From: Tetrahymena thermophila SB210
Lineage: Eukaryota > Ciliophora > Oligohymenophorea > Hymenostomatida > Tetrahymenidae
Direction: 5' to 3'
DNA length: 64,000 bases
Assembly: GCF_000189635.1 (NCBI RefSeq)
Contig: NW_002476387.1
Location: 806,001 to 870,000 of the forward strand
Numbering within the stretch: the stretch's first letter is position 1; the number at the start of each line of letters is the position of its first letter. Below are positions 1-41,924 of this stretch, one piece after another. The notes beneath the pieces are model-generated. The model was not told the origin of the DNA. It was given only the letters and a program-made list of their open reading frames with translations, and searched no databases. The translations under genes and the position numbers were made by a program.

Positions 1-2046
1 ATTCGAAGTATTATCAATACACTATTTTAAAATTCCCATAATTATGTCAGCTTCTACAGTTCTTTCATGTACTTCATCAAGTAAAATGTAACTTATTTAG
101 CTAAGAATTCGACACTAATTAAGCTGTTATTACTTTTCAGACAGTTTTTTGATTCTTTGGACTAAAAAACTTAAAAACATTGCTTGAGTTATAAATATTA
201 TGCGAGTCTTATTTTTATCATAAAGCTATTCGTGTTTCTAATACCCAACAATATATCCCACTTCTTATCCTAAAGTAGTGTGTAATTCTTTTGCTACTCT
301 ATCTGAAATAGTTAAGCAATTCAGCCTTTTTGGTTGAACACAATATATTTTCTTTGTAAAATCATCAGACAAAATTTATTTTTGTAAAATGTATTAGCAT
401 ATTTGAGTAGTTTTACCAGATCCAGTTGTGCCAATTAGTAGTGTAAAAGGGTTCTTAGATTATTCAACTTACTGAATTAATTACTTCTTAATTTAGTATG
501 ATGGTAGGTTTCTTGCCAACATACTTTTCTCCATTTTCAAAGCAATAGTAAATTTATTTAAAATGGAGTAATAAAATTTTGATAAGTAACTTATTTACTC
601 TGCACTTAAATTCTTTATATCTGACTAGGTATCTAAATTTTAAGAATCACTTAGCTCTTCAGAAAATCCTACCTCTTCGTCATATTGGTTATCTTCATCA
701 CGATCTTTGCTGTTACTGAAATCTTAGAGGTTTTATTAGACAATCTAAATTTCTTAATCCTATTAATTACTATTAGAATTTTCACTCTTCAATTTTAATT
801 GATTCACTATTTATTAGGATTAAAGCTAATTTGCTATTTCATCTTGAGAGTAAAATTTATTTTCAAATTATACTTCAGAATTATCTAAATTAGTTTATGT
901 TTCAATTAAAGCAGCATGATTAATAAGTTGAGAAATTTTTTTATTTATGCCTTAGTCAACTCTTTATTTGAGATCAGCTATATTATTTATATACAATTTG
1001 ATTAAATTCATATAATTTATCTCATAATTGTTGAATTATTTATTTTGTTAATTGATATCTATGTGTTATTTCAAGTATTCAGCTAAATACTTTAAAGCAC
1101 TTCTCATCTAATAAAGTATTTCTTTAAGTTAAATATTAGACAATAAATTGCTATAATTAACATTGAACCAAGAGTTTTCATCTTCTCTAAGTAAGCTAAA
1201 GCTAAAATGTTACTTGCAAAATTGATTAATAATTTTTAAATCTTGAATTTTTTGCTACTTTTGTTATTAACTTTGTAAATCATCTTCAGTGCTTTATCTG
1301 TTTTAAGGTTTTTTAAAATACCTTTGATCTTCAGAAAATTCTTCATCTTATTTTTTGAATTAATTATGTTATTAAACATTTACATTCCTATCATTATATT
1401 TTTACTTTCTCTATTTATCTTTGAATTCTTTTTGGTAGTTACTATATTTATGATTTTATTACTATTCTTGTGTATTTTCTTCAAAATTTTGATTCATCTA
1501 CTATTCACTTTAATTGATTCGATCATGTATTTTTTCATTTCTGTCATCGTATTTTTATTTTTTATATCTTTCTTTGAATTCATTTTATTAATTCTTAAAT
1601 TTATTATTCTACTAATAATCTATTATTTATCCTTATTTCTACATCTAAATTTCTTCTTCTTCTATTTAATTATTATCTCCTTTTTTGGGATGTTAAAACA
1701 TTCTGTAATTTCGAGTTTTTTCATTTTATTAATAGTTTTTGTATTATTCTTTATGATGATAACTCTTTTACTCTCTTTTTTTCTTAAATTCATTTTAAAA
1801 TTCACTCTAATCTTAAAGTTACTCTTCTTCTTTAATTTAATTACCTTAAAACTATTACCCATAACCCTACCTTTTATTTCTAAAATTTTATTCTTAAAGC
1901 TTTTCGCTTTGTAATGGTTAATTGCTTTAATCTTGAATTTATTCACCCCTGTTATCCCTTTAAGAATGTTTAAAATCATCCTTTCTATTATCTTTATTGA
2001 CTTCCTTATTATCTTAATTGTTATTTTTAGAATGCTCTTAACCCAT
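1..2046 (-). CDS. DEAH/DEVH-box helicase, N-terminal part (runs off the left edge)
   Basis: RNA-helicase-like ATPase of superfamily 2. The frame starts at the ATG at 2044-2046. About the first 300 residues are a Q/K/E/N-rich low-complexity tail. A helicase core follows: LPSYQIKKQLIQQVEQ, then motif I GTTGSGKTTQ (near 405-435), motif Ia CVQPKRL, the VGYIVGYQ segment, and motif II DEVHER (near 55-85). These match the DEAH/RHA group, which remodels RNA or ribonucleoproteins using NTP. DEVH instead of DEAH is seen in several animal DHX proteins, so the subgroup (DHX9/29/36/57-like against spliceosomal) cannot be settled. The usual PQY after motif I is CQY. The C-terminal motifs III-VI and the OB fold lie outside the window. 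The frame contains no TGA from the start to the edge; introns were not needed in this part. Confidence 0.88.
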
Positions 2047-3461
2047 TTTTTGTTTAACTTTTATAAGATGATCTTATTTCAGTTTTAATGAAATGTTAAC
2101 CCTCCTGATTTTTATTTAAATGTAAAATGTTTTTTTTGGTAGATTATTTTTAAATTGACTTATAACTCTTTTTTAATTTTTTTCAAATTTTAAGTTTTAT
2201 TGTAGCTTTTTTATGATAAGAAATGTTAAAAGATCTTTTGTTTTTGATTTATTTATTGATCAAAAAAAATAACAATTTCAGTATTTATTTGGCTTATATC
2301 CAATCAGAAATATTATATTTTATATAGAAAAATGCTTATCATTTAAAATTAAAAGCGGCGTCTCAAACTTCTCAAAATTTTTAACATAAATATGATCCAA
2401 TGTTAATTAAATCTGATAAAATAAAAGAGTTTTAATAATCAAAAAATAGTTTTAAATTTGTCAATTTCAGAATTTAAAAAATGTAATTAATCAGAATTAT
2501 GTAATAAATTCTTTTGAAAAATTCATAAAATTTCTATATAAATTTAAACAAAGATAATAATTTTTTATATCTTCTACTGTCATTTAAAATTAAAAGCATC
2601 TCAAACTTTTTAACATAAATATGATCCAATGTAAATTAAATCTGATAAAATAAAAGAGTTTTAATAATCAAAAAATAGTTTTAAATTTGTCAATTTCAGA
2701 GTTTTAAAAATGTAATAAATCAGAATTATGTAATAAATTCTTTTGAAATATTTAAAATTTCTATATCATTTAAACAAAGATATTACTTTTTAATATCTTC
2801 AATCTGTAGAATATGTTTCTATCATTTTAAAATTTATCTTACTCATATCATATTTTTAAATAAAAATAGATATTTATAATTCAGCTACAAATTTAATAAA
2901 ATATTTATATTTCATTAGCAAAACATGATAATATATTATTATTATATTTGATTACTCAAACCATTTTTCATTAAAATAATATAAAAAACTTTTGAAATTT
3001 AATGTATTTTTGGCAGAATTTATTAAAATCCTCCTTATCTTTCTATAATTCATACTATCTTTTGATAAAGTTTCAGAAAAATGAAAAATGGAAAAAATAT
3101 TTTTTAATTAATTTTTAATATTTCCAATTATCTATTTTTCTTGGTTTAAACTCTACCCTATTAGTCTTTATTTGAGAGAATAGAATAATAGGTAAAACAT
3201 GCTTAGTATAAAATCATTCATTTTTAATAAAAGAGAGTGCATTCTCATTAATTAAGATATTTTAAAAAATCGATTTTTAACTCAACTTAAACTTAGAGAT
3301 AATAATTTTATAAAATGAATTTTTAGATCTTAATTAAATGGATCATAATTAATGAGAATTTGCTGTAGGTAGTTCATATTTTATAAAATTTTAAATTTTA
3401 GCTTATTCAAATATGATTTATAATCTATCACACATAATTAAAAAATAAAAAATATTATTTT
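2047..3461. other. Intergenic region between divergent genes, with a tandem duplication
   Basis: AT-rich spacer between the helicase start (-) and the next gene start (+). It should hold both promoters, but I can recognise no specific motif. Its only clear structure is the direct repeat listed separately. Confidence 0.6.
2340..2807. repeat. Two-copy direct tandem repeat, about 230-240 bp each
   Basis: Copy 1 (about 2340-2579) and copy 2 (about 2581-2807) start 241 bases apart and share long identical stretches, for example the block beginning ACATAAATATGATCCAATGT and continuing through AAAAAATAGTTTTAAATTTG. Differences are a few substitutions and small indels, including a GGCG-containing insertion near the start of copy 1. 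It lies in intergenic DNA with no coding sign, so it looks like a simple recent duplication. Confidence 0.85.
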
Positions 3462-17373: not shown

Positions 17374-20083
17374 ATGTTCGCCAAGAAAGCCGTTACCCAA
17401 TACATTAAGTCTAGCACCAAGGGTTTATCCCAAAAGTTCCCTATGTTCTTCGCTGCTAAGGAATTGAGCTTTGGTATGGAAGCCAGATAAAAGATGCTTA
17501 TTGGCTGCGAAAAGCTTGCTGATGCCGTTCAAACCACCCTCGGTCCCAAGGGTCGTAACGTTGTCATCGAATAGTAAGAAAAATGATTTTTTTATTTCTA
17601 TATCAATCTTAAAACATTAACAATACATCATGAATGAGAGAAGAAAAGATAACAATTTCAAATATGGTGAAATTATTTCTTATCCTTTTGTTGGATGTTA
17701 AAATTTTAAGATTTTCAATAAAAAAAGCTTGACATTTTATTCGTTAAGAAGGAATACTTTTATCCTTGATAAAAGAAAATATTAGAATAAAAGTTGAATT
17801 TTAAGTTATTAACTTATACATTTAATTATATAGAACTTTCGGTCCCCCTAAGATCACTAAGGATGGTGTCACTGTTGCCAAGAACATCGAATTTTCTGAT
17901 AAGTTCGAAAACATTGGTGCCTCTTTGGTCAAGCAAGTTGCTTCCAAGACTAATGACGAAGCTGGTGATGGTACCACCACTGCCACCGTCTTAGCTAGAG
18001 CTATCTTCAAGGAAGGTTGCAAGTCTGTTGCTGCTGGTATGAACCCTATGGACTTAAGAAGAGGTATCAACCTTGCTGTTGACCACGTCGTTAAGACCCT
18101 TAAGGCCAACTCTAGACCCGTCAACACCACCCAACTCATTTCCGATGTTGCCACTATTTCTGCCAACGGTGACCGTGAAATCGGTGATCTTATTGCTAAG
18201 CTCATGGAAAAGACTGGTGAACACGGTACTATCACTGTTGCTGATGGTAATATTTTGAATTTCAAATGCAAACAAAAAAAATACAGAAAATTCTATTAGA
18301 TTTCTTGAATGATCTAAATAAAATAATTTGAGATAGATATTCTTTAGTTTAAATACGAAAACTAAAAGTTTATAATAGGGAATAGCCACGTTTGTATCAA
18401 GCATATAAAAACAAGCGTAGTTAATGAATACTATGACATAAAATAAACATAGAATAATAAGTAGTACTTAAGGATTTAAGCAGTAATAGATTATAAATTT
18501 ACTCTTACATCAGTAAGTTAAGTGATGTATAAGTTGATTAATTAATTAATTTATTTATTAATCAAATAAATAATTGATAATTAAAGAAGCAATTTAATTG
18601 AGATATTGACAATTTTATTTTCTTGAAAAGTGATCATTGATAGATAGCTGGTGAAAAATTTTTAAGAAATTTCTCAAATCAAAATTAAATATAAAGAAGA
18701 AAATAAAATTTCTCGAAATTCTTTAAAAAGATTAAATAAACAAATATCTCAAATTAATGAAGCTTTAGCAACAACAATTTAATTTATTTAGAATATTTAA
18801 GAAATCTTAAAGAATAAAAAAAATTGTTTATGATAAAATATTTTTTTTTTAATTTATTAAAAATGATATTTTTATGAAATAAATAGGTAAGACCTTGAAC
18901 CACGAAATCGAATTCGTTGAAGGTATGAGATTCGACAGAGGTTACATCTCTCCCTACTTCGTCACTAACACTAAGTCTTAAAAGTGTGAATTAGAAAACC
19001 CTCTTATCTTGATCGCTGAAAAGAAGGTTACTAACATCCAAGCTATCTTGCCCTACTTAGAACACGCCATGAAGTCCAACAGACCCATCCTCATTATCTG
19101 TGAAGATGTTGAATCTGAAGCTTTGGCTACTTTGGTCGTCAACAAGCTTAGAGGTGGTCTTAACATCTGCGCTGTTAAGGCTCCCGCTTTCGGTGATAAC
19201 AGAAAGGCTATCCTTAACGATATTGCCATTCTCACCAACGGTACTGTCATCTCTGAAGATGTTGGTCTTAACTTTGACAATGCTGAAGTCAATGTTATGG
19301 GTACCTGCAAGAGAGTTATCGTTACTAAGGACGACACCGTTATTATGGATGGTTCTGGTGATTAAACTGCTATTAATGAAAGATGTGCTTAAATCAAGGA
19401 ATAAATTTAAGAAACTACTTCTGAATACGACAAGGAAAAATTATAAGAAAGACTTGCTAAGTTCTAAGGTGGTGTTGGTATCATTAAGGTCGGTGGTGCC
19501 TCTGAAGTCGAAGTTGGTGAAATCAAGGACAGAATCACCGATGCTCTCTGTGCTACCAGAGCTGCCGTCGAAGAAGGCATCGTTATTGGTAATTTATTGT
19601 TTGATCTATTTATATATTTGACTTTCAAATAAAATTTTAATTTATTAAAAAATTATTTCTTAAATTAATAAAGGTGGTGGTTGCGCTTTATTATATGCTT
19701 CCAGAGAATTAGACAACTTGAAGGGTGAAAACTTCGATTAAAACATTGGTATCTAAATCGTCAAGAAGGCCATCCAAATTCCTTGCAAGACTATTGCTGA
19801 AAATGCTGGTAAGGAAGGAGCTATCATTGTTGGTAAATTACTTGAATCTAAGGATGCTAACCTCGGTTATGATGCTTCCAAGGACAGATATACTAATTTA
19901 ATTGAAGCTGGTATTATCGATCCCACTAAGGTCGTTAGAAGAGCTCTTATCGACTCTACCTCTGTTGCCTCTTTAATGATTACTTCTGAATGTATTATTG
20001 TTGAAGATGCCAGCCAAAAGAAGGATGCTGCTCCTGCTATGGGTGGTATGGGCGGTATGGGTGGTATGGGAGGTATGTACTGA
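17374..20083 (+). CDS. HSP60: Mitochondrial chaperonin HSP60 (GroEL family)
   Basis: Folds imported proteins in the mitochondrial matrix. Four exons: 17374-17573, 17834-18246, 18887-19588 and 19674-20083; introns are 260, 640 and 85 nt. The exons sum to 1725 nt, 574 residues, normal for HSP60. The N-terminus [20 protein letters not shown] is basic and Ser/Thr-rich, as expected of a mitochondrial presequence. Chaperonin signatures follow: [75 protein letters not shown]. The C-terminus is a GGM repeat, the typical GroEL tail. Codon use differs sharply from the neighbours, with many C-ending codons, as in highly expressed Tetrahymena genes. In-frame TAA and TAG fall at conserved Gln sites. Only the first exon boundary splits a Gln codon (TA|A). 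Confidence 0.98.
18247..18886 (+). other. Unusually long HSP60 intron 2 with possible structured RNA
   Basis: This 640-nt intron is about ten times the usual length here. Between about 18340 and 18525 it holds less AT-rich sequence and several possible stems: CTTTAGTTT with AAACTAAAAG, CGTTTGT with ACAAGCG, and AGTAA with TTACT followed by an ACA triplet. That layout resembles a box H/ACA guide RNA but is not proven. Confidence 0.35.
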
Positions 20084-24167: not shown

Positions 24168-24738
24168 TTTTTACTTACTTTTATTAATATATAGAAAAGA
24201 GTTCTTTGTTAATAATTTAAATCAAAAAAATAGTGAAATAAATTGAAACTTAAGAATTTTAATTAATTAATTAATGAATAAGGGCAAATCATTTATATAA
24301 TTTTTGTTTATTTATATTTATTTATTTTATTAGTCATTCATTAAGGTTGATCTGTGATTGTTTTTTAACAAATATTAAGTAAGATAATCAACCTATTTAC
24401 TAATCATACATATCTTTTCTTTTCTTCTTAATCTCTTGATAATCTATTTGCAAATGGCGCTAGTTTACTTATTTAAATACAATAAAAATAAAAAGTATTT
24501 TACATTTTTGTTGAATTCATACAGTTTATTTTGAACAATATTAAATTTTATTATTTAAAATTATTTTTTATTTATTTTATGATTCGTTATTTTTAAGGTA
24601 AAATTAAATTATTATAAGATATGGTATTTTAGAGAATGTTCTTTCCATTTTTATGAAAATACTTAAAGTAGTTAAGTAGGAGATTTGTTCTTTGATAAAA
24701 AAATTTATATTAAAAAATTTTCGAGTAATTAAAAACAA
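24168..24738. other. Intergenic, divergent promoters
   Basis: AT-rich spacer between the dynein chain start (-) and the TPR gene (+). No element recognised. Confidence 0.45.
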
Positions 24739-26310
24739 ATGATTTGTTCAATTTTCAAAAAATCTATTTAACTTTAAAGTAGAATTTGTAAATAGATTCT
24801 AAAATAACATAAAAATCATAATTCTATTGATTATTTCAATAGATCTAATTTATTAGATAAGATTTGTCTAAACTCAAAGTAAATTGCATTCATATTTTCA
24901 TAATATATTCTACATGGTTTTTCATAAATAAATAATATTAGGCTAAATAAATATCAGTTTACTTCTTAATAAGACAATAGAGTTGACAATGAAGAGGAAA
25001 TTACAAAATTTTATACACAAAATTAGATTTTAGTTGAACAAAATAAATTTGAGGAAGCAATTTAAAGTTGGAATCAAATGAAGTCTAATTTGTCATTGAA
25101 AGGCATATCAAAAGAAGAATGTGATTACCAAATAGCAAAGATTTATTTAGAAAAAGGAGAAACTTAAAAGTCAATTGAGCTTTTTAACGACTACTTAAAA
25201 AATATTTCAAATCAAGAACATTATACTGATTAAATTATAGCAGATGAACTGTTTCATATTGCTCAAGAATTTTAAAAAGAAAGTTAATATGAGGAATCGA
25301 TACCATTTTACTAAGAATCTCTTAAAAAAAACTATAAAAATGTGGAAATTCATTTGATGTATTTACAAAATTTGATTAAAAACATGAACAAAAATGATGC
25401 TGCCATCGAACATATTTACAAAATTATTAACCATAACGAACTTTATAACCCTATACTTTTTTCCTTTTTAGGTGAAGCTTATTTCAATAAAAGAGAGTAC
25501 AGTCATAGTGTAGATTACTATCTTAAGTATTTAGATGTTATTTTAAGTGGCAAGAAAAAAGATACAAAAAACCAAGAAGAAGCAATAAATGAAGAGCTTA
25601 AAAATGCAAATTTAGAAATTGCTAGCTTATTTTTAAAGGTAGCATCATCATATTACTTCTTAAACAACTATGAAAAATCTTTAGAATATTATTTAAAGAA
25701 TTATGAATTTTAGAAGGAGCACAAATATGAAATAAGTCATCAGATGTTTTTGAATATCTCTGAACTATATTTGAAATTATAAAACATATAAAAAAGTTTA
25801 GAAATTCTACAGATTGGATCTGAAAATTATCCTGAAATGATAGAATTTTAGTATTTCCAAGGCATGATTAACTTAAATTTTTTAAAGAATAATGATTAAG
25901 CATAATAATGCTTTGAGAAAGCTATAAAGATAAATAAAAAGCATTCTGATTCTTACAAATAGCTAGGCCTTTTGTATTTAAGACAACAAAGATATGAGGA
26001 AGCAGAAGAGATGTTTTTGAACTGCATTAAAATTTACCATAATGATACGGATGCTTTATATTACATGGCATACATTTTATAATATCATCATAAATCTCCT
26101 TAAGACGCCTTAATATGCTATCAAATGTGCCTTGATGTCAATTCAGAGCTGCCAGCTCCTCTAATGCAATGTGCTATCATTCATTACGATACCTCAAACT
26201 ACGATAAAGCTATTGAATATATAACTAAGGCTCATTAATCTGACCCTGATTCTGAATAAATAAAATTACTCTATGAAAAAATGAAATCAAAGCAAACTAT
26301 TAACTTTTGA
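24739..26310 (+). CDS. Tetratricopeptide-repeat (TPR) protein
   Basis: Single open frame from ATG 24739 to TGA 26308-26310 (523 codons). From about residue 85 onward it is a chain of degenerate 34-residue TPRs: FYTQNQILVEQNKFEEAIQ, LGEAYFNKREYSHSVDYYLK, VASSYYFLNNYEKSLEYYLK, LNISELYLKLQNIQKSLEIL, FEKAIKINKKHSDSYKQLG, LYLRQQRYEEAEEMFLNCI and CAIIHYDTSNYDKAIEYITK. TPR arrays act as protein-binding scaffolds; the partner cannot be told. The first 75 codons are very AT-rich and unlike the rest, so the true start may lie in a small upstream exon or nearer 24990; the next in-frame ATG is 25078. TPRs of this kind occur in ciliary transport, anaphase-promoting and TFIIIC proteins, and I see nothing that picks one. 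Confidence 0.82.
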
Positions 26311-31345: not shown

Positions 31346-33775
31346 TCAATTTGCTAATTTTTGAGGAGAAAATTAATTTTATTAAATGTGAGGAGCTTCT
31401 ATTTCTTAAATTGATATGTTTGGACTATATATCGAATTTTCACCACATTTAATTTGATAGTCTTAATTTATTAATATGCTGCTTTTATTTCTCTCGTTTT
31501 TTGTAATCGATGATAGATCATGAAAGCTTTTTTTATTTAAGCTCTTTATGACAAATTTTTTGTCGTAGTAGTATTTTGTTGAGTCAGGAATATTTTCTAA
31601 AGACTAACTTCTAGATTTACTATTATTTGTATCAGCGTAGTTTGATAATTATGGTATTAAATTTTCTTTATTCTGATTTAAAAGATTCTTAAATTAATTA
31701 GGATTATCAGATAATTAGCCTAAATTTTAATTATCTTCTTTATTTAACATTTCCTAAACATTTGCTCTGCACTTATCAATTTAAGACTAAGAACATTTAC
31801 TGTTTATAAAAGGATGTTTTAATATTTCGTGGGATTTAATTCTTTCTTGTGGATTAATCTTAAGCATTTAAATAATTAAATCTAATAGAAGTTCTCCTTT
31901 TTCCTAATTATCAAATTAAGATAATATGTTTGTTAAATATGCTGGTAGTATTTCATTTATAGCTTTTTATTTTTGCAAGAGCTTCTCAAAGTCTTGATTT
32001 CTAATTGAAAATATCCCTGTCTTGATAACTGTTTTTTCTTTGTATGAAACTCTACATTTATAGCTCAACCACTAAGGCAATCCAGTTAACAATTCAAGAA
32101 GGGAAGCTCCAAAAGACCAAACATCTATTGTGTCTAAAGACCCTTACAAGTTTTAAATCATAGTGTGATTATTATTTTTAATGCGATTGTTTTCGTTGAT
32201 AATTTAGTTAATTACTTCAGGAGGCATGTATTCTATAGTTGCTAAATTTATTGTACCCTTTTCATGATAACTAACTACAGATCCAAAATCAATCAAGGCA
32301 ACTTACTCTAGATTGAATTTTTAATTTCCTTCAGATTTATAATTAATTAAAATATTTTCTGGCTTAATGTCACAATGTATAAGTTTATTCTCACTTAAAA
32401 GAGAAAGAGCAGAAGCAACTTTATATATAAACTAAGCCATTAGATTGTTTTCAAGTTAAATGAAATCATAATATGATTGCTAAAAATTAATTTTATAAAT
32501 TCTCTCATTATTATGAAAATCCCCATTCAATCCATAAAATAGCTTAGCTGATGTTGATCCACCTAACTCAAATATTATCCAAGTGTCTTTAGAGTCTTTG
32601 ATAACTTCAACTAAACCAATAAGGTTTTTTAATCCTTTTTAAATAGATTTAATTTTAATAACAATTTTTATAATTTTTAACTAATTCTTACTCTAATCAT
32701 TTTAATATTAAGCTTTTGGTTAACCATCATCATTATAGAAATTTTGTAGAAGCTTAAGCTCTCTTTGAATAGATTCTTAGTTATTCTTGTTGACTATTTA
32801 TTTTACTGCCACTTTTTACTGTGTTTTTGAGCTTTTACACAACCAAACAACAGAGAACCCTCCTCTTTTTTTAGTAATTAATTAATTAATAAATTAAATA
32901 TTATTAATCATATTTACTTTCCTAAGATTTCTATTTTTTCATACCCCTAAGGACATCTTGATCCATAAAGCTTTGTCTCTTCTTCGCTTAAAGCAATTAT
33001 TTCTTTTTTTAATAAAAACAAATATAAACTTTTTTATTGATAAAAGCAAATAATAAATAAATTTACCTTTAAAATTATTTTTGAAATTTAACTAATCTCC
33101 CTTTATTGCATTATTTGGTGACCTATTAAATAGCAAATTGATTTAATTAAATTTATAAAAATTATATTTCAAATTTATTATTTAATTATTTATATTTATT
33201 TACTGGTAGGATTTTTTTTGGTTGGGATTTTATTTTTATAAGTCTTTCTAGAACTATTGCAAATAGCCATCTTTTGGAAATGGGATAAATGTTGAGGACT
33301 AACATCTAATTTTATTTTCTAGTTAATTCACATTGTTTATAAGAACAGCAGCCTTTTGTTTATTGATTTATACTTTTAAGTTTTATTTAGAGAGATAAGG
33401 CTTTATTATCTCAGAAGGATATTTTTTATAGGAAAGTTATGGCAGAAGGGATTATTAAATTGATGCATTTAATTAATTTTAATTGCTAATATTTTAACTA
33501 CTTTATTAATAATATAGCTGCTACTAGTTTTAGTGATTTTGTTATTAAGAAAATAATTAATGCTAATTTAAATTTTATTAATTCATATTCTTTTCTTATC
33601 TAATTGACTTTTCTGAGGCTACTGGCACAATATTATTTTATTTGGCAGAAGGTTATCTATTATTTGTATTGCCTAAGAATTCTAAGTTTCCCTTTTTTAG
33701 ATTGTCTTATAGCATTGCTAGTCTCTATATATTATCGTTTATCTTTTGGATGTTTTATTATTAAACAGACTTCAT
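31346..33775 (-). CDS. Serine/threonine-type protein kinase with Q/N-rich N-terminus
   Basis: Starts MKSVQQQNIQK at 33775. The first 210 residues or so are Gln/Asn-rich. Introns at 33123-33203, 33003-33066 and 32865-32917 are phase-consistent (744 codons including the stop); a further 57-nt intron around 32650-32710 is likely and keeps the frame. Kinase domain landmarks: LGKGGFSVVWLCK (Gly loop), KVAVKQIV (ATP lysine), IQRELKLL (C-helix Glu), LIHCDIKPENIL (catalytic loop with Asp), LIDFGSVVSY (DFG), ATIEYMPPEVI (P+1 loop), DVWSFGASLLELLTG, and ERIKSHEILKHPFI (end of domain). The tail is about 140 residues. HCD replaces HRD, and the activation loop is short, so it sits outside the common AGC, CAMK and CMGC groups; substrate and pathway are unknown. 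Ends at TGA 31346-31348. Confidence 0.9.
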
Positions 33776-35164: not shown

Positions 35165-38100
35165 TCATTTATTTAAGAAACCGATCTTAGAGATAGCAGA
35201 TTGTAAATCTTCTCCTCCTTCTCCTCCACTTTGTTAAATTCCTGATTATTTTTCTAAGTAAAAAGTTTAATTAATTTAAAAAAAAAATATTTAAATTTAC
35301 TCATTTTCATTTCCTTAAGAAGGCCTAACATATCTGACTTATTTTTGGTCATTAACATACTCTCTCTAACATTTTAATAGCATTTAGACATTCTGACATC
35401 GCCAGAATTAAGATTTTGCATACCAATAAATGTTCCTCTAACGTTTTCTAAATTTTCAACCTTTTGGTTAGCTTTTTAGCTAAGTTGACTTTTAAATCCC
35501 TTCATAATACTAGCTAAATTTTGTTGTGGATTAGAAACACTCTGTTCAGGAACTTAATTCTTTTATTGTACATTTGATGTGGAAGCCTTTAAGTCTGGTT
35601 TTGCTTGTTTTTAATCTACTTTTGAAGTTGAGGTCTTCAAATCTTCTTTAGCCTTTTTTTCCTCTTCCTTCTTTTTCTTTTCTTCCTCTTTTTTCTTTGC
35701 CTCTTCTATCTTCTGCTTATCTGCCTTTTCTTTCTTAATTTTTCTAAAAAGCTATCCAAACTTTTCAGCAAACTTTTCAGAAGGATCAGTTGGCTTTTCT
35801 CCATACAAGCTTGCAACTTACTTGTAAGTTTCATCTATAGTTTTAATTTCAACATCCATACTATTTATACGTTATTCGATAGCATCTACGCTTCCATCTA
35901 GTTTTGATTTGATATTGTCATTTGGAAGATCTGTCTGGGATTAAATAGCTTTTTGCATAAAGCGGAAATTTTTCTTTATTTCATTTAAATCTGCATTCAA
36001 TTGTGATATAGGGAGCTACTCACAAAGATTTAAAGCTTCTTCATCTTCTAGAGATATGAGAGGATTGTATTTCTTTTCAAAAATATCTATTACATACATC
36101 ATCAAAGTTGTTTTATTATCTTTCATTTTTAGTTCACTTATTTTAATCAAAGAATCAAATTTAAAGCCCCAGGCTCCACCTCTTGCTGATTCTCCATTTA
36201 AATAGTTACCAAAAGCTAAAACATACTCAAGCATTTCAGGTATTAATTTGTTATCTTTCAAATAGAAAATACCTCTTCTTAATTTTTAAACTTTTGGCTC
36301 TAAATCTAAGAACATTTCTTCGTGAGTTTTAAGGAAAATTAAACCTCTGATACGATCACCAAATCCTTTTACTTTTTTTACTTCGTAAATAAACTTTTCA
36401 GGGTTAGCTAAATCCTCAGGTTTACCTCCACCTTCAATATAACCTGTAACTAGGTCTACTTCTTCTTGCTTAGGACAAATGTTGTTAAGAGATTGAAGAT
36501 TATTAAGAGTTAAAATTTTTTCATCACAGCTAACTAAAGCATTGCTGATTAAATTTGAAGATATTTTTAGCTTTTACAAAACAATTTCATAAGTCTTTGT
36601 TCTATCACCATTAATCAAGCTAGTTTTTTGAATAATCATTGGTTTTGGTGGTGCTGTTGTGCTGCCTTAAGTGCTATTAGAGTTAGATCCATTTGGTTAT
36701 GAAGAAGCTCCACCAACTTATTTGACAGGAGCAGTAGGCTTTTCAAATTAATCTTCTATAAATTTAATATCCAATTCAACTTTTTCATCATTTAATTTCT
36801 CCCATATAGTATTTTTAATATTATTAGCTGTTATTGTGTTCCACATAAAAGGTTTGAGAGGGACATTTGGCTTTTTCTTTTGTTTCTATAGAGGCTGCTA
36901 AGGCATCATCTAATCATAAAATTAAATTATAGTTGTAGTATAAAGGTAATTAATTTACCATAGGCATATTGAAAGAAGGCATCATCTTTGATATTTTAAA
37001 ATAATTAATTAGCATTAAATGAAAACTTTGTTTATTTTTATTTTACTGGTGCTTAAGTTCCAATAAGAAATGGTGGTGGCATCTTTAATAGATAAAAAAT
37101 TAATAAATTTGATGAGAATTTTCATTTAAAAATTACAGGTGCTCCTCCTAAATTAATTGCCTTTTTTATAATTAATAAATTAATAATATATGTAAAGAAA
37201 AAAAAAATTACAGGTGATTATCCAAAAGGTGGTGGTGGCTATTAAATAAAAAATTATATTGTTCAAAAAAATAATACATTTTTTCTAAATATATTTATTA
37301 CTGGTGGAATACCTCCAATTGATGGTGCCTGTTTTAGAAAGTAAATAAATCTTTTATTTCTAATTAAAAATAATTTACAGATGGAATACCTCCGAAAGGT
37401 GGTGGCTGTGAGATTAAAATATAAAAATTAATAAAAATAAAACATTTTTATTTAATTTACAGGTGGAGGTGGGATACCTCCAAACGATGGAGCCTAATTT
37501 TAAAGAGAAATAGAATTATTTATTTTTTGGAAATGAAAAAGTTAGTTTACAGGTGGAATACCGCCTAGAGGTGGTGGCTAAGAAATAAAAATAATAATTT
37601 CAAAACAAAAAATATAATATTTTGAGGTAATTTATTTACTGGTGGAATACCTCCAATAGATGGAGCCTTTTATTTATTTAAATTGGAAAAATAAAATAAA
37701 ATTGATGATTTTATTTCAATTTATAAAATTAATTTACTTGTGGAATTCCTCCAAAAGGTGGTGGCTAAAATTATATTTTTAAGTTAAATATAACAAAAAT
37801 AAATTTAAAATGTTTACTGGTGGGATGCCTCCAATAGAAGGAGCCTTTTTAAAATAAAGAAAATATCATATAAAATATTTTTAAAAATTATTTATTTTTA
37901 TTTTACAGGTGGAATACCTCCAAAGGATGGTGCCTTTTTTCATAATTTTTAATAATTATTATTATTTTATTTTTTTAAACAAGATTTACAGGTGGAATGC
38001 CTCCAATAGGTGGTGCCTAGATTAGTAAGTAAAAATAAAAATAAATAAACTATATTTATTAATTTATTTACAGGTGGAATGCCTCCGATTTATGGTGCCT

Positions 38101-41100
38101 TTTTTCATATTTTAATAATAATTATTAATTACTTTTTTAATTTTTTTAAACAATATTTACAGGTGGAATGCCTCCAATAGGTGGTGCCTATAATAGAAAG
38201 TAAAAATAAAAATGTTTAAATAATCTAATTTATTAATTTATTTACAGGTGGAATGCCTCCGATTTGAGGTGCCTTTTTTCATAATTTTTAATAATTATTA
38301 TTATTATTTAATTTTTTAATTTTTTTAAACAAGATTTACAGGTGGAATGCCTCCAATAGGTGGTGCCTAGAATAGAAAGTAAAGATAAAAATAAAAATGT
38401 TTAAATAAACTATATTTATTAATTTATTTACAGGTGGAATGCCTCCGATTTGTGGTGCCTTTTTAAATAATAAGAAAATATTTAATTTAATGAAAATGTT
38501 AAATTTATTTAATTTACAGGTGGAATACCTCCAATAGGTGGAGCCTAAAGGAAAAAATAAAAAGGTCAAAAAGAAGATAATAATTCTCAAACAATCTATT
38601 TACTGGTGGAATGCCTCCAATTTGTGGTGCCTATTTTAAATAAATAAGTACATAAATACTATATATTATTATTAACAAGTAAATAAGTATGTAAGTAAGT
38701 AAGTTGTTTATTTACTGGTGGGATGCCTCCAATTTGTGGTGCCTTTTAATATAAATAAATATAATTAATTATATTTTTTATAAATATTTATTTGAAGTTA
38801 AACTTACAGGTGGAATACCTCCGATTGGTGGTGCCTTAATAAAATAAATAAAAAATATTTATATATGTTTTAAATTTTCTATAAATTTTATTTACTGGTG
38901 GAATGCCTCCTATTTATGGTGCCTTTTTTAAAATAAATTAATATTTTTATTGGGTTTTTATGTATATATCAAATTACTGGTGGAATACCTCCAATAGGTG
39001 GTGGCTAAAATAAAATATACAGTTAAAAAATTTAATGATTGTATAAAATATTTATTTATTTACTGGTGGAATGCCTCCAAATTATGGTGCCTTTATTTTT
39101 ATTAAAATAGTAATAATGAATAAATTGATAAATAAAACAAATTTAATTACTGGTGGAATACCTCCAATTGGTGGTGCCTATAATTTTTAAACAAACAATA
39201 AAAATTATTTAGATTTAAAAATATTTATTTATTTACAGGTGGAATTCCTCCTATTTATGGTGCCTTTTAAATGAAATAATAAATTGAATATTTAAAAATC
39301 AACTATTATTTTAAATTTTACTGGTGGTATACCGAAAATAGGTGGTGCCTATTGAATTAAATACAAATAAATCATAAATATATAAAAAATAATTTAAATT
39401 TTTATTAATTACAGTTGGAATATCTCCCAAAGTTGGTGCCTTTTTTATTAACAAAAATTAGATATTTAGATTGCTTAAATTTTGCTTACTTATGGTACAC
39501 TTCCTAAAATAGGAGCCTTTATATCAAAATTAAAAAGTATTTAATAAAATAATTGCTACTTATTTGTTTAATTATTTAATTACAGGTGGAATGCCTCCTC
39601 CGATAGATGGAGCCTTTATTTTTAACAAAATTATTTTAATTTAAAATTGTTTGATTATCAAAATTTAATTCATTTATTTTAAGGATTATTTTTTCTGGAA
39701 AATAATTTTTTTTATTGAATAAAAATGAAGTTTTTTTTTTAGTTGATTACTTGTGGGATACCTAACTAAGGTGCCTATTTTTAAATAAAATAATCTATTA
39801 AGTTTTCTTTAAGCTATAAATTACTGAGGGTATGTTTGATGATTCCTTTTAAATTAATAATTATCTTAAAAATTTTTAATAAAATAGAAAATTAAAATAC
39901 CTAATTATTAACTATTTAAGCTTTAAGCTAGTTAATTTCCTTTAAGAGAGTTTATATCTAGCTTTCCATTTCTTTTGTTTGGTTTTTGAGGTCTATAAAT
40001 TTAGCTGATATATCATCTTTTTGCTACAAGATACCAGATATTTCAGAATCCTTTATTCTATTTTATTCCTCCAACTAATTGATTTGTTTAATTAGACTCT
40101 CCATATCTTTATTGCTCTCAACTAGAGCATTTAGTTCCTTTTCGCTTATAACTGTTTGGATAAAATTTAAGAAACTAATTTATTTATTTTTTTATTTTAC
40201 CTCCTTGAGGTGAAGCGAATATCTTAGATAGTGCTTTATCTAAGTTAATAAATACTTTTTTAACTTTATCTTAATCACTTGGAAGCAATAAAAGCTTTTG
40301 TAAAGATCCAGTTAGCTAATCGTAGCAATCATTTTCAAATGCCTTTTTTTTAAGCTTTTCAATTAAACTTTCAAATGTAATTTCATAGTTTTAAGGTTTA
40401 ACAAAAACAGAATCAACAGGATCTAAGATTGTTTTTTCACTATCATCCAAATTGAAAGTCAAAAAAAGTTGCATTTAATTCTTTATGCCCTAGATATGTA
40501 ACTAGAATATTTTAGTATCTCCTTCGTTTAAAGTGCAGGAAAGTAAGAGCAAGCGGTCAACTTCCTCATCTACCTCATCGTCTTCTTATTTTTCCTCTTC
40601 AAAATTCTCGAGTTTATCTGCTAAAGAATTATAATCTACTGTTTCAGCTTCTTCTGACTCTTCTTTTATGATATCTTCTTGTTCATTTTTTTTACTGAGA
40701 AGCATCATCTTTAGGTCTATAAAAAATGTATCAATTTAAAAAGAAAAATGTAATATTTAAAGTCAGTTTACTGCTATTATTTTAATCTATGTGACCATCT
40801 TCAAAATAATTTTATTCTTAAATTTAATTTTTCAAGGCATTTAAATAAGCTTATTATGTACAATCTTTGATTTTGTACTTTCCTAACTTGATTCTTGTAA
40901 GGATGATCTATTTTATATAGAAATAATTTTAAGGACAAGATTTTTATGTGATTCTTTGGTAGCAAGTAATAATTAATTAATAATATTTTAACAAACATTT
41001 TATTGTAAAAGAAATTACCTCAAATATATTTTCAATATTAAGTTCTATAAATTCTTATCTAATGAGTTTAGCACGCTATTTGTTTGAAGGAAGTGATATG

Positions 41101-41924
41101 AAGCTAAACAAGAAATCAACTGTGTTCCTAATCAAAATAATGTTAGGAGAGTCTTTTAGGATGTCAATCAAAATTTAAAAACGAGAAGATAAACTGTTAT
41201 TTATTTTATACTCGCTGAAACCACGACATACACTTTCTAAATCTTCATCGTTTCCAAGTAAAAATTATGAAGAAACATCAAACACATATGCTGTAACCAT
41301 AGGATGGTAAGGGTTTATGCATGAAACAATAGTTTAAATACCATTAGGTACACGCTTCAAGTAATCAATACCTTAATCGAAAGTGGTAACCATGTAATGA
41401 ATAAATTCAAATAGTTTTATTAGCAAATCATATTTTCCTGATTGTCTTGATTGTGTATTTTAATTACTGATTATATCGATCAATATTTGAGGTCCTCTAT
41501 AATTCTTAAAGTCTTTCCAAAAGATTTCATCATTCTACTTTCTTTCTAATTCGATTTAGTCAAACAAATTGTTATATGCGTAAACGCTTTGTTCTTCAAT
41601 GAGTCTTTCGAGTAACTTTTAAAGAGGAGTCTTAGTAATATTCTTTTATGATTTTCCTTCCATTATATCCTAATGTTTATTTAGAAGACGCCATTTATAT
41701 TTCTTTGGAAGATTGTAAATTATTTATTTTTAATCTTCAGAAGCAATAAGCTTTGAAGCAAAATTTTCAAAGTCTTTTTGAAGAATTTTGTCTGAAGGTA
41801 TTTTCTTTTGAAAACGATGTTTGTTTTTAAGACTCCCAAAAACTAATTCTATCTCATCAGGATAACCTTTGAACCTATATCTAATTTATTAATCTAGCTC
41901 AGGCTTTGCTGACTATTGACCCAT
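35165..41924 (-). CDS. Diaphanous-type formin with micro-exon FH1 domain
   Basis: Actin nucleator and elongator. Exons on the - strand: 41019-41924, 40772-40907, 40201-40716, 39901-40151, 32 micro-exons between 39774 and 36959, 35301-36909 and 35165-35253. They sum to 4380 nt, 1459 residues. Residues 1-350 resemble a GTPase-binding/FH3 regulatory domain (GYPDEIELVFGSLKNKHRF; ILIDIISNQNTQS). Residues 520-603 are a coiled coil (LVESNKDMESLIKQINQLEE). Residues 604-894 are FH1 repeats of the APxIGGIPP kind, which bind profilin-actin. Residues 895-1430 carry FH2, starting PLKPFMWNTI, with the hallmark EYVLAFGNYLNGESARGGAWG and FKFDSLIKISELK, then a Lys/Glu-rich helix. The short tail ends KIGFLNK. 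The frame is open above the chosen ATG, so a further 5' exon is possible. Such an architecture fits autoinhibition relieved by a Rho-type GTPase, but no clear DAD motif is seen. Confidence 0.93.
36959..39774 (-). repeat. Array of 32 micro-exons encoding the formin FH1 repeats
   Basis: Each unit on the - strand is AG|GCACCA...GGAGGCATTCCACC|GTAAAT. Exons, 5' to 3': 39751-39774, 39584-39613, 39490-39516, 39413-39439, 39322-39348, 39237-39263, 39151-39177, 39064-39090, 38978-39004, 38896-38922, 38808-38834, 38716-38742, 38604-38630, 38518-38544, 38432-38458, 38340-38366, 38246-38272, 38161-38187, 38072-38098, 37990-38016, 37907-37933, 37818-37844, 37738-37764, 37640-37666, 37551-37577, 37461-37493, 37379-37405, 37302-37328, 37212-37235, 37137-37160, 37047-37082, 36959-36985. 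All are multiples of three in phase 0. Most give A-P-[PQST]-[IFL]-G-G-I-P-P; four begin PPP where TAG|CC replaces AAG|GC at the acceptor. Introns between them are 50-137 nt. The + strand shows no matching donor after the units, so the array belongs to the formin. Confidence 0.93.

Follow-up and report, generated by a model that had tools for sequence, protein, structure and literature searches.

A formin gene with a predicted micro-exon array

The stretch of Tetrahymena thermophila SB210 DNA analysed here (the window: 64,000 nucleotides, contig NW_002476387.1, positions 806,001 to 870,000) carries a formin gene on its minus strand. One gene model spans 41924-35165 and comprises four exons, 33 micro-exons, an FH2 exon and a short last exon. 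It amounts to 1463 codons and a TGA stop with no internal TGA; a preliminary description of the locus had given exactly 1460 codons, which is corrected here. TAA or TAG stands in frame at 65 codons and is read as Gln, so that the gene fits the ciliate code (code 6). The G+C content of the window ranges from 17.5 to 32.7% per 2-kb step. Judging from the DNA, the locus is likely to be a single formin gene of diaphanous type from a code-6 ciliate, with the whole FH1 laid out in 33 serial phase-0 micro-exons that are spliced constitutively and with FH1 length set by tandem duplication of exon pairs.

The exons are given below in the order of the gene. Micro-exons are 27 nt long and were found by pattern scan unless stated otherwise.

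41019..41924 (-): formin exon 1; ATG at 41924, open in code 6; GBD/inhibitory-domain region
40772..40907 (-): formin exon 2; GT-AG model, frame kept
40201..40716 (-): formin exon 3; gene model
39901..40151 (-): formin exon 4; gene model; coiled-coil-like by eye
39825..39845 (-): micro-exon 1, 21 nt, ESSNIPS; by eye and gene model, absent from the earlier list
39751..39774 (-): micro-exon 2, 24 nt, APQLGIPQ
39584..39613 (-): micro-exon 3, 30 nt, APSIGGGIPP
39490..39516 (-): micro-exon 4, APILGSVPQ
39413..39439 (-): micro-exon 5, APTLGDIPT
39322..39348 (-): micro-exon 6, APPIFGIPP
39237..39263 (-): micro-exon 7, APQIGGIPP
39151..39177 (-): micro-exon 8, APPIGGIPP
39064..39090 (-): micro-exon 9, APQFGGIPP
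38978..39004 (-): micro-exon 10, PPPIGGIPP; junction 9/10 reads PPPPP
38896..38922 (-): micro-exon 11, APQIGGIPP
38808..38834 (-): micro-exon 12, APPIGGIPP
38716..38742 (-): micro-exon 13, APQIGGIPP
38604..38630 (-): micro-exon 14, APQIGGIPP; first break in the alternation
38518..38544 (-): micro-exon 15, APPIGGIPP
38432..38458 (-): micro-exon 16, APQIGGIPP; young exon-pair block
38340..38366 (-): micro-exon 17, APPIGGIPP; young block
38246..38272 (-): micro-exon 18, APQIGGIPP; young block
38161..38187 (-): micro-exon 19, APPIGGIPP; young block
38072..38098 (-): micro-exon 20, APQIGGIPP; young block
37990..38016 (-): micro-exon 21, APPIGGIPP; young block
37907..37933 (-): micro-exon 22, APSFGGIPP
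37818..37844 (-): micro-exon 23, APSIGGIPP; second break in the alternation
37738..37764 (-): micro-exon 24, PPPFGGIPQ; junction 23/24 reads PPPPP
37640..37666 (-): micro-exon 25, APSIGGIPP
37551..37577 (-): micro-exon 26, PPPLGGIPP; junction 25/26 reads PPPPP
37461..37493 (-): micro-exon 27, 33 nt, APSFGGIPPPP
37379..37405 (-): micro-exon 28, PPPFGGIPS; junction 27/28 reads PPPPPPP
37302..37328 (-): micro-exon 29, APSIGGIPP
37212..37238 (-): micro-exon 30, PPPPFGQSP; junction 29/30 reads PPPPPP
37137..37160 (-): micro-exon 31, 24 nt, AINLGGAP, one Pro; by eye, confirmed in the gene model
37047..37082 (-): micro-exon 32, 36 nt, MPPPFLIGTQAP
36959..36985 (-): micro-exon 33, MMPSFNMPM
35301..36909 (-): formin exon 38, FH2 domain; PF02181 match and DAAM1 chain match
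35165..35241 (-): last formin exon, after the DAD-like motif, with the TGA stop; gene model; DAD-like motif by eye only

The pattern scan looked for AG, a unit of 21-42 nt whose length is a multiple of three and which encodes at least two Pro, and GT. It returned 37 rows. Thirty-one are array units and six were dropped, namely four longer readings of array units to a later GTTT and two hits within the FH2 exon. The micro-exons measure 21-36 nt, 27 of the 33 are exactly 27 nt long, and all are in phase 0. The 32 units that had been described at 39774-36959 on the minus strand, with lengths of 24-36 nt, phase 0 throughout and mostly 27 nt, were all recovered (27 of the 32 have exactly 27 nt). 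They are preceded by one more, the 21-nt unit ESSNIPS at 39845-39825, which raises the count to 33. That the FH1 is coded by micro-exons holds, but the 291 residues ascribed to the 32 units become 292, and all 33 encode 299. Similarly, most units contain one repeat each, as had been stated, yet the motif APxIGGIPP itself (x is Q, P or S) is found in 16 of the 33, the outer units being degenerate. Of the 27 units that measure 27 nt, 22 have GGI at residues 5-7.

The exact pattern of AG, a 27-nt unit and GTAA was counted 18 times in the window, whereas 100 shuffles gave a mean of 0.00. Among similar pairs of short AG..GT units, all 230 on the minus strand fall in the array, and the single plus-strand pair is an antisense shadow of it. 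Together, these counts show that the pattern is not a product of chance. The scan for such pairs revealed no further micro-exon array in the 64-kb window. The array pattern was also not found in scans of viral and bacterial collections, a result that says little about ciliates.

Domain composition of the predicted protein

The FH2 domain is recognised with confidence (PF02181, E 1.1e-64, 219.3 bits against a cutoff of 34.8, model residues 911-1288), and its best solved chain is that of DAAM1 (E 1.4e-36). The FH1 contains 109 Pro in 299 residues and lies directly ahead of the FH2 exon. In the N-terminus, Drf_GBD scores 31.5 bits when this part of the model is scanned alone and 29.3 bits in the raw open reading frame (ORF), the cutoff being 30.1. 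A phmmer comparison of the N-terminus with inhibitory-domain chains gave INF2 at E 6.3e-6 and mDia1, weakly, at E 0.007. Against this assignment stands the whole-protein Pfam scan, in which Drf_GBD was not reported at E 0.05. Drf_FH3 was not reported in Pfam scans of the whole protein, the model N-terminus or the raw ORF. Near the C-terminal end, the motif MLGLLKEM resembles by eye the DAD consensus MDxLLxxL; Pfam reported nothing in the last 50 residues at E 0.1. With an FH2, an N-terminal GBD/inhibitory region and a proline-rich FH1, the predicted protein would have the features of a diaphanous-related formin. The formin with an FH1 from serial in-frame micro-exons that the preliminary description had proposed is supported.

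The protein would begin with MGQQSAK (41924-41904), which may fit a loose N-myristoylation pattern. By eye, no obvious signal peptide is seen in the N-terminus MGQQSAKPEL. A 2008 survey placed three Tetrahymena formins in a ciliate clade and names GBD/FH3 and FH1, but not DAD, for ciliate formins (PMC2386819).

Sequence evidence on intron-by-intron splicing

All 34 array introns are of the GT-AG type, their median length is 59 nt, and 33 of them start with GTAA. G+C content is 50% in the micro-exons and 11% in the array introns; the long exons have 29% and the remaining four introns 15%. Only five of 32 neighbouring unit pairs share a genomic frame. Consequently, a single protein needs the introns to be taken out one by one, and an unspliced reading of the array was rejected on this ground. 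Intron lengths divisible by three are found in five of 34 cases against 11.3 expected (P = 0.013), and three of these five lack an in-frame TGA. The last 20 nt of the array introns are 54% T; AG occurs there in two of 34 introns against 7.9 expected (P = 0.0064), and the reversed dinucleotide GA in seven.

Among the 22 canonical units, the ratio of nonsynonymous to synonymous change (pN/pS) is 0.29 in the formin frame, but 0.84 and 1.40 in the other two minus-strand frames. A minimum spanning tree of these units has 41 changes, of which 25 are synonymous (P = 4.5e-5) and 27 fall at codon position 3 (P = 2.1e-5). Coding on the plus strand was considered and rejected, since the three frames give 1.68, 0.54 and 204 (the last nearly without synonymous change) against 0.29 on the minus strand.

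We also considered that there are no micro-exons at all and that the array is a tandem repeat within one large intron (39900-36910), with exon 4 joined to the FH2 exon and the FH1 nearly absent. Intronic tandem repeats are common, and such a skip would stay in frame because the end of exon 4 and the start of the FH2 exon are both in phase 0. However, an intron would have no reason to show an excess of silent changes in one frame, splice-site features bordering the units or a G+C contrast, whereas the content of the array suits the need for an FH1 and sits where an FH1 belongs. We rejected the large intron on the frame, silent-site and splice-site evidence, and regard it as very improbable.

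Some observations nevertheless weigh against splicing of each unit. The scan demanded AG and GT ends and lengths of 3n, and these two features are hence not independent tests. The codon-wise tests treat the units as independent despite their shared ancestry, which makes their P values rough; the observed pN/pS is matched by four of 500 column shuffles, and one plus-strand frame has 0.54. Over the whole array introns AG is not significantly depleted (21 against 24.2, P = 0.22). An in-frame TGA is present in only six of the 34, so that open frames alone are no proof of splicing. Given that the units vary mostly at silent sites of the formin frame and that few neighbours share a genomic frame, removal of the array introns one by one would be the economical reading.

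Codon usage in the micro-exons (39845-36959) is peculiar. CCA accounts for 76 of 109 Pro and GCA for 21 of 27 Ala codons, while the long exons show the reverse (CCA 12 of 39, GCA 13 of 39). Among the 27-nt units, 25 of 27 have CCA in codon slot 8. This preference may go back to the founder sequence or may constitute an exonic splicing signal.

Proline tracks and likely function of the FH1

Once spliced together, the 33 short units, most with nine residues each, would give a proline-rich arm of 299 residues before FH2. The exon junctions sit within the proline motif (..GGIPP/APP.. and ..GGIPP/PPP..), and many of them would form a likely profilin-binding site. There are six runs of at least three prolines, five of which have 5-7 prolines. 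The latter lie at junction 9/10 and then at 23/24, 25/26, 27/28 and 29/30, the last four in the FH2-proximal third. A further motif type is seen at 17 of the 32 junctions, which read PPAPP (six), PPAPQ (eight) or PPAPS (three).

In other formins, polyproline tracks recruit profilin-actin. Cutting mDia1 from 14 to 2 tracks lowered acceleration but did not abolish it (PMC5969902), and the effect of one unit is therefore probably small. For Bni1, the tracks nearest FH2 are described as supporting higher elongation rates (PMC5969902, PMC9705415). Most of the work would presumably fall to the FH2-proximal third, with the middle units adding reach and local concentration. It counts against this picture that the weaker PPAPP and PPAPQ/S motifs are assumed to bind profilin.

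Probable growth of the array by exon-pair duplication

Two unit types, distinguished by whether residue 3 is P, alternate through units 7-30 with two breaks. The resulting 22 runs were equalled or exceeded in 11 of 200000 shuffles, for a range that was picked after looking. The array contains a tandem repeat with a period of 171 bp and 3.0 copies, and introns two or four units apart in block 16-21 are 82-88% identical. The duplicating unit of this block consequently consists of two exons and two introns, and duplication by exon pairs accounts for the alternation of the two unit types. Outside the block, intron pairs have a median identity of 0.62 against a shuffled mean of 0.56, the best pairs reaching 0.77.

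Within the young block, introns differ by 0-4 substitutions and by gaps besides. In the exons, the changes seen are CCA/CCT and CAA/TAA. Both are silent, CAA/TAA solely owing to TAA being read as Gln; two changes do not suffice for a claim that exons evolve more slowly than introns. Identity to a central unit is 37-80% for micro-exons 1-6 and 30-33 and 67-100% for 7-29. Degenerate outer units are the pattern expected if exchange homogenises the middle. The array probably grew through repeated duplication of exon pairs, and tandem duplication of such two-exon, two-intron units would expand and contract it in the genome. Changes in FH1 length would then come from duplication of DNA, and regulated splicing would not be their main source. 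It counts against this history that a change of exon number over time is deduced from one sequence.

An MP-rich start is common to the last micro-exons (MPPPFLIGTQAP and MMPSFNMPM) and to the start of the FH2 exon (MMPQQPL; 37082-36890). These may be very old duplicates at the array edge.

Constitutive or variable splicing

We propose constitutive splicing by intron definition, in which every short AT-rich intron would be recognised as a whole. In T. thermophila, 1474 alternative events are reported, of which 832 are intron retentions and 139 cassette exons, and the authors' inference is that intron definition prevails (PMC3274533). In the array, 29 of the 34 introns would shift the frame if retained.

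The preliminary description had suggested a splicing-tunable actin polymerase. In this reading, regulated skipping of subsets of micro-exons would yield FH1 arms of varied length and hence varied elongation rates. All micro-exons are symmetric, any donor-acceptor pair in the array keeps the frame, and the alike splice sites could permit slippage. Schistosome micro-exon genes, with their very small symmetric exons, are reported to use alternative splicing (PMC4350168), and in T. thermophila itself, besides the 139 cassette events, alternative splicing is stage-specific in 172 genes (PMC3274533). But cassettes are a minority there, and the introns of cassette events average 279 bp and retained introns 80 bp (PMC3274533), compared to the array median of 59 nt. 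In-frame symmetry, the principal argument for tuning, is a by-product of duplicating a symmetric exon, and duplication alone accounts for it. The cassettes are in frame, every one of them, yet they are not freely interchangeable, as the two types alternate and four of the five long proline runs lie near FH2; in Bni1 the FH2-proximal tracks are those reported to support faster elongation (PMC5969902, PMC9705415). RNA structure was rejected as a regulator, the one 501-nt stretch that was folded (38600-38100) being no more stable than shuffles (z 0.60). Nothing in the analysis supports a tuning of FH1 length or elongation rate by splicing, and we consider regulated skipping improbable.

Skipping might also be noisy and unregulated, differing between transcripts and tolerated by the protein since the units are in frame and partly redundant. 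Any skip inside the array stays in frame, 33 alike exons with alike donors and acceptors invite mispairing, and FH1 function in mDia1 is described as partly redundant (PMC5969902). Definition of short introns should however favour pairing of nearest neighbours, and we hold such an error-tolerant architecture to be distinctly improbable. In more general terms, that FH1 length is set at the RNA level, by life-stage-specific or stochastic choice among the 33 micro-exons, so that graded actin polymerases arise from one gene, is in our view unlikely. We infer instead that splicing of the array takes place and is constitutive.

Other genes in the window

Further features were noted outside the formin gene.

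17733-20080 (+): Cpn60 (HSP60) gene of mitochondrial type, split over several ORF pieces; lies in the 2-kb step with the highest GC content of the window
20038-20077: 9-bp tandem repeat TATGGGTGG, near the 3' end of the Cpn60 gene
31349-32938 (-): ORF with a protein kinase domain
24583-26307 (+): ORF with TPR repeats
4-2259 (-): ORF with a partial DEAD helicase

Comparison with known systems

Fibrillar collagen genes, with their 54-bp exons, likewise encode a repeat protein in uniform small in-frame exons that arose by duplication, although the protein is different and the exons are larger. A closer parallel is found in the leucine-rich repeat (LRR) genes of Tetrahymena, in which exons of exactly 90 bp form arrays and the introns are in phase 2 (Xiong et al. 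2019, PMC6564038). Both are ciliate tandem exons of one fixed 3n length with uniform intron phase. Unequal crossing-over, perhaps together with retrotransposition, is the proposed means by which the LRR exon-intron units multiply, and exon number varies between LRR genes, of which there are thousands; the T. thermophila introns peak near 257 and 122 bp (PMC6564038). In contrast, the formin has modal 27-nt exons, phase 0, introns of about 59 nt and exon-pair duplication, and is one gene in the window. No LRR family was reported in Pfam scans of the formin.

Flatworm nuclear genes use the standard code, and the 65 in-frame TAA/TAG codons do not fit a flatworm nuclear gene. Nevertheless, the locus resembles schistosome micro-exon genes in that most of the FH1 lies in serial, very small symmetric exons (33 of 21-36 nt; PMC4350168). 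The schistosome genes are described as apparently restricted to platyhelminths, as carrying a signal peptide and as generating variants by alternative splicing (PMC4350168). The formin differs in having no obvious signal peptide by eye and in its homologous repeat exons.

Among the matches listed (titles and abstract starts), the open-licence literature contained no report of micro-exons in a ciliate formin, and the phrase Tetrahymena profilin was not found among the matches listed there. The formin gene may be annotated in a genome database. A row of 33 consecutive exons of about 27 nt would test how splice sites are paired by intron definition when exons are alike and shorter than introns. 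It also offers a natural series of FH1 units, the number of which may differ between strains, and natural variation could be used to study how FH1 length is linked to profilin sites and actin assembly.

Like the diaphanous-related formins mDia1 and Bni1, the predicted protein has a GBD/inhibitory region, FH1, FH2 and several proline tracks before FH2 (PMC5969902, PMC9705415); by eye, its tail also looks DAD-like. Unlike them, its FH1 would come from 33 micro-exons, 17 of 32 junctions are PPAPP, PPAPQ or PPAPS, and four of five long tracks are FH2-proximal. The locus joins features of the LRR-type exon array and of micro-exon genes in a cytoskeletal gene, and would extend the evolution of Tetrahymena exon arrays from LRR genes to such a gene and to the micro-exon scale.

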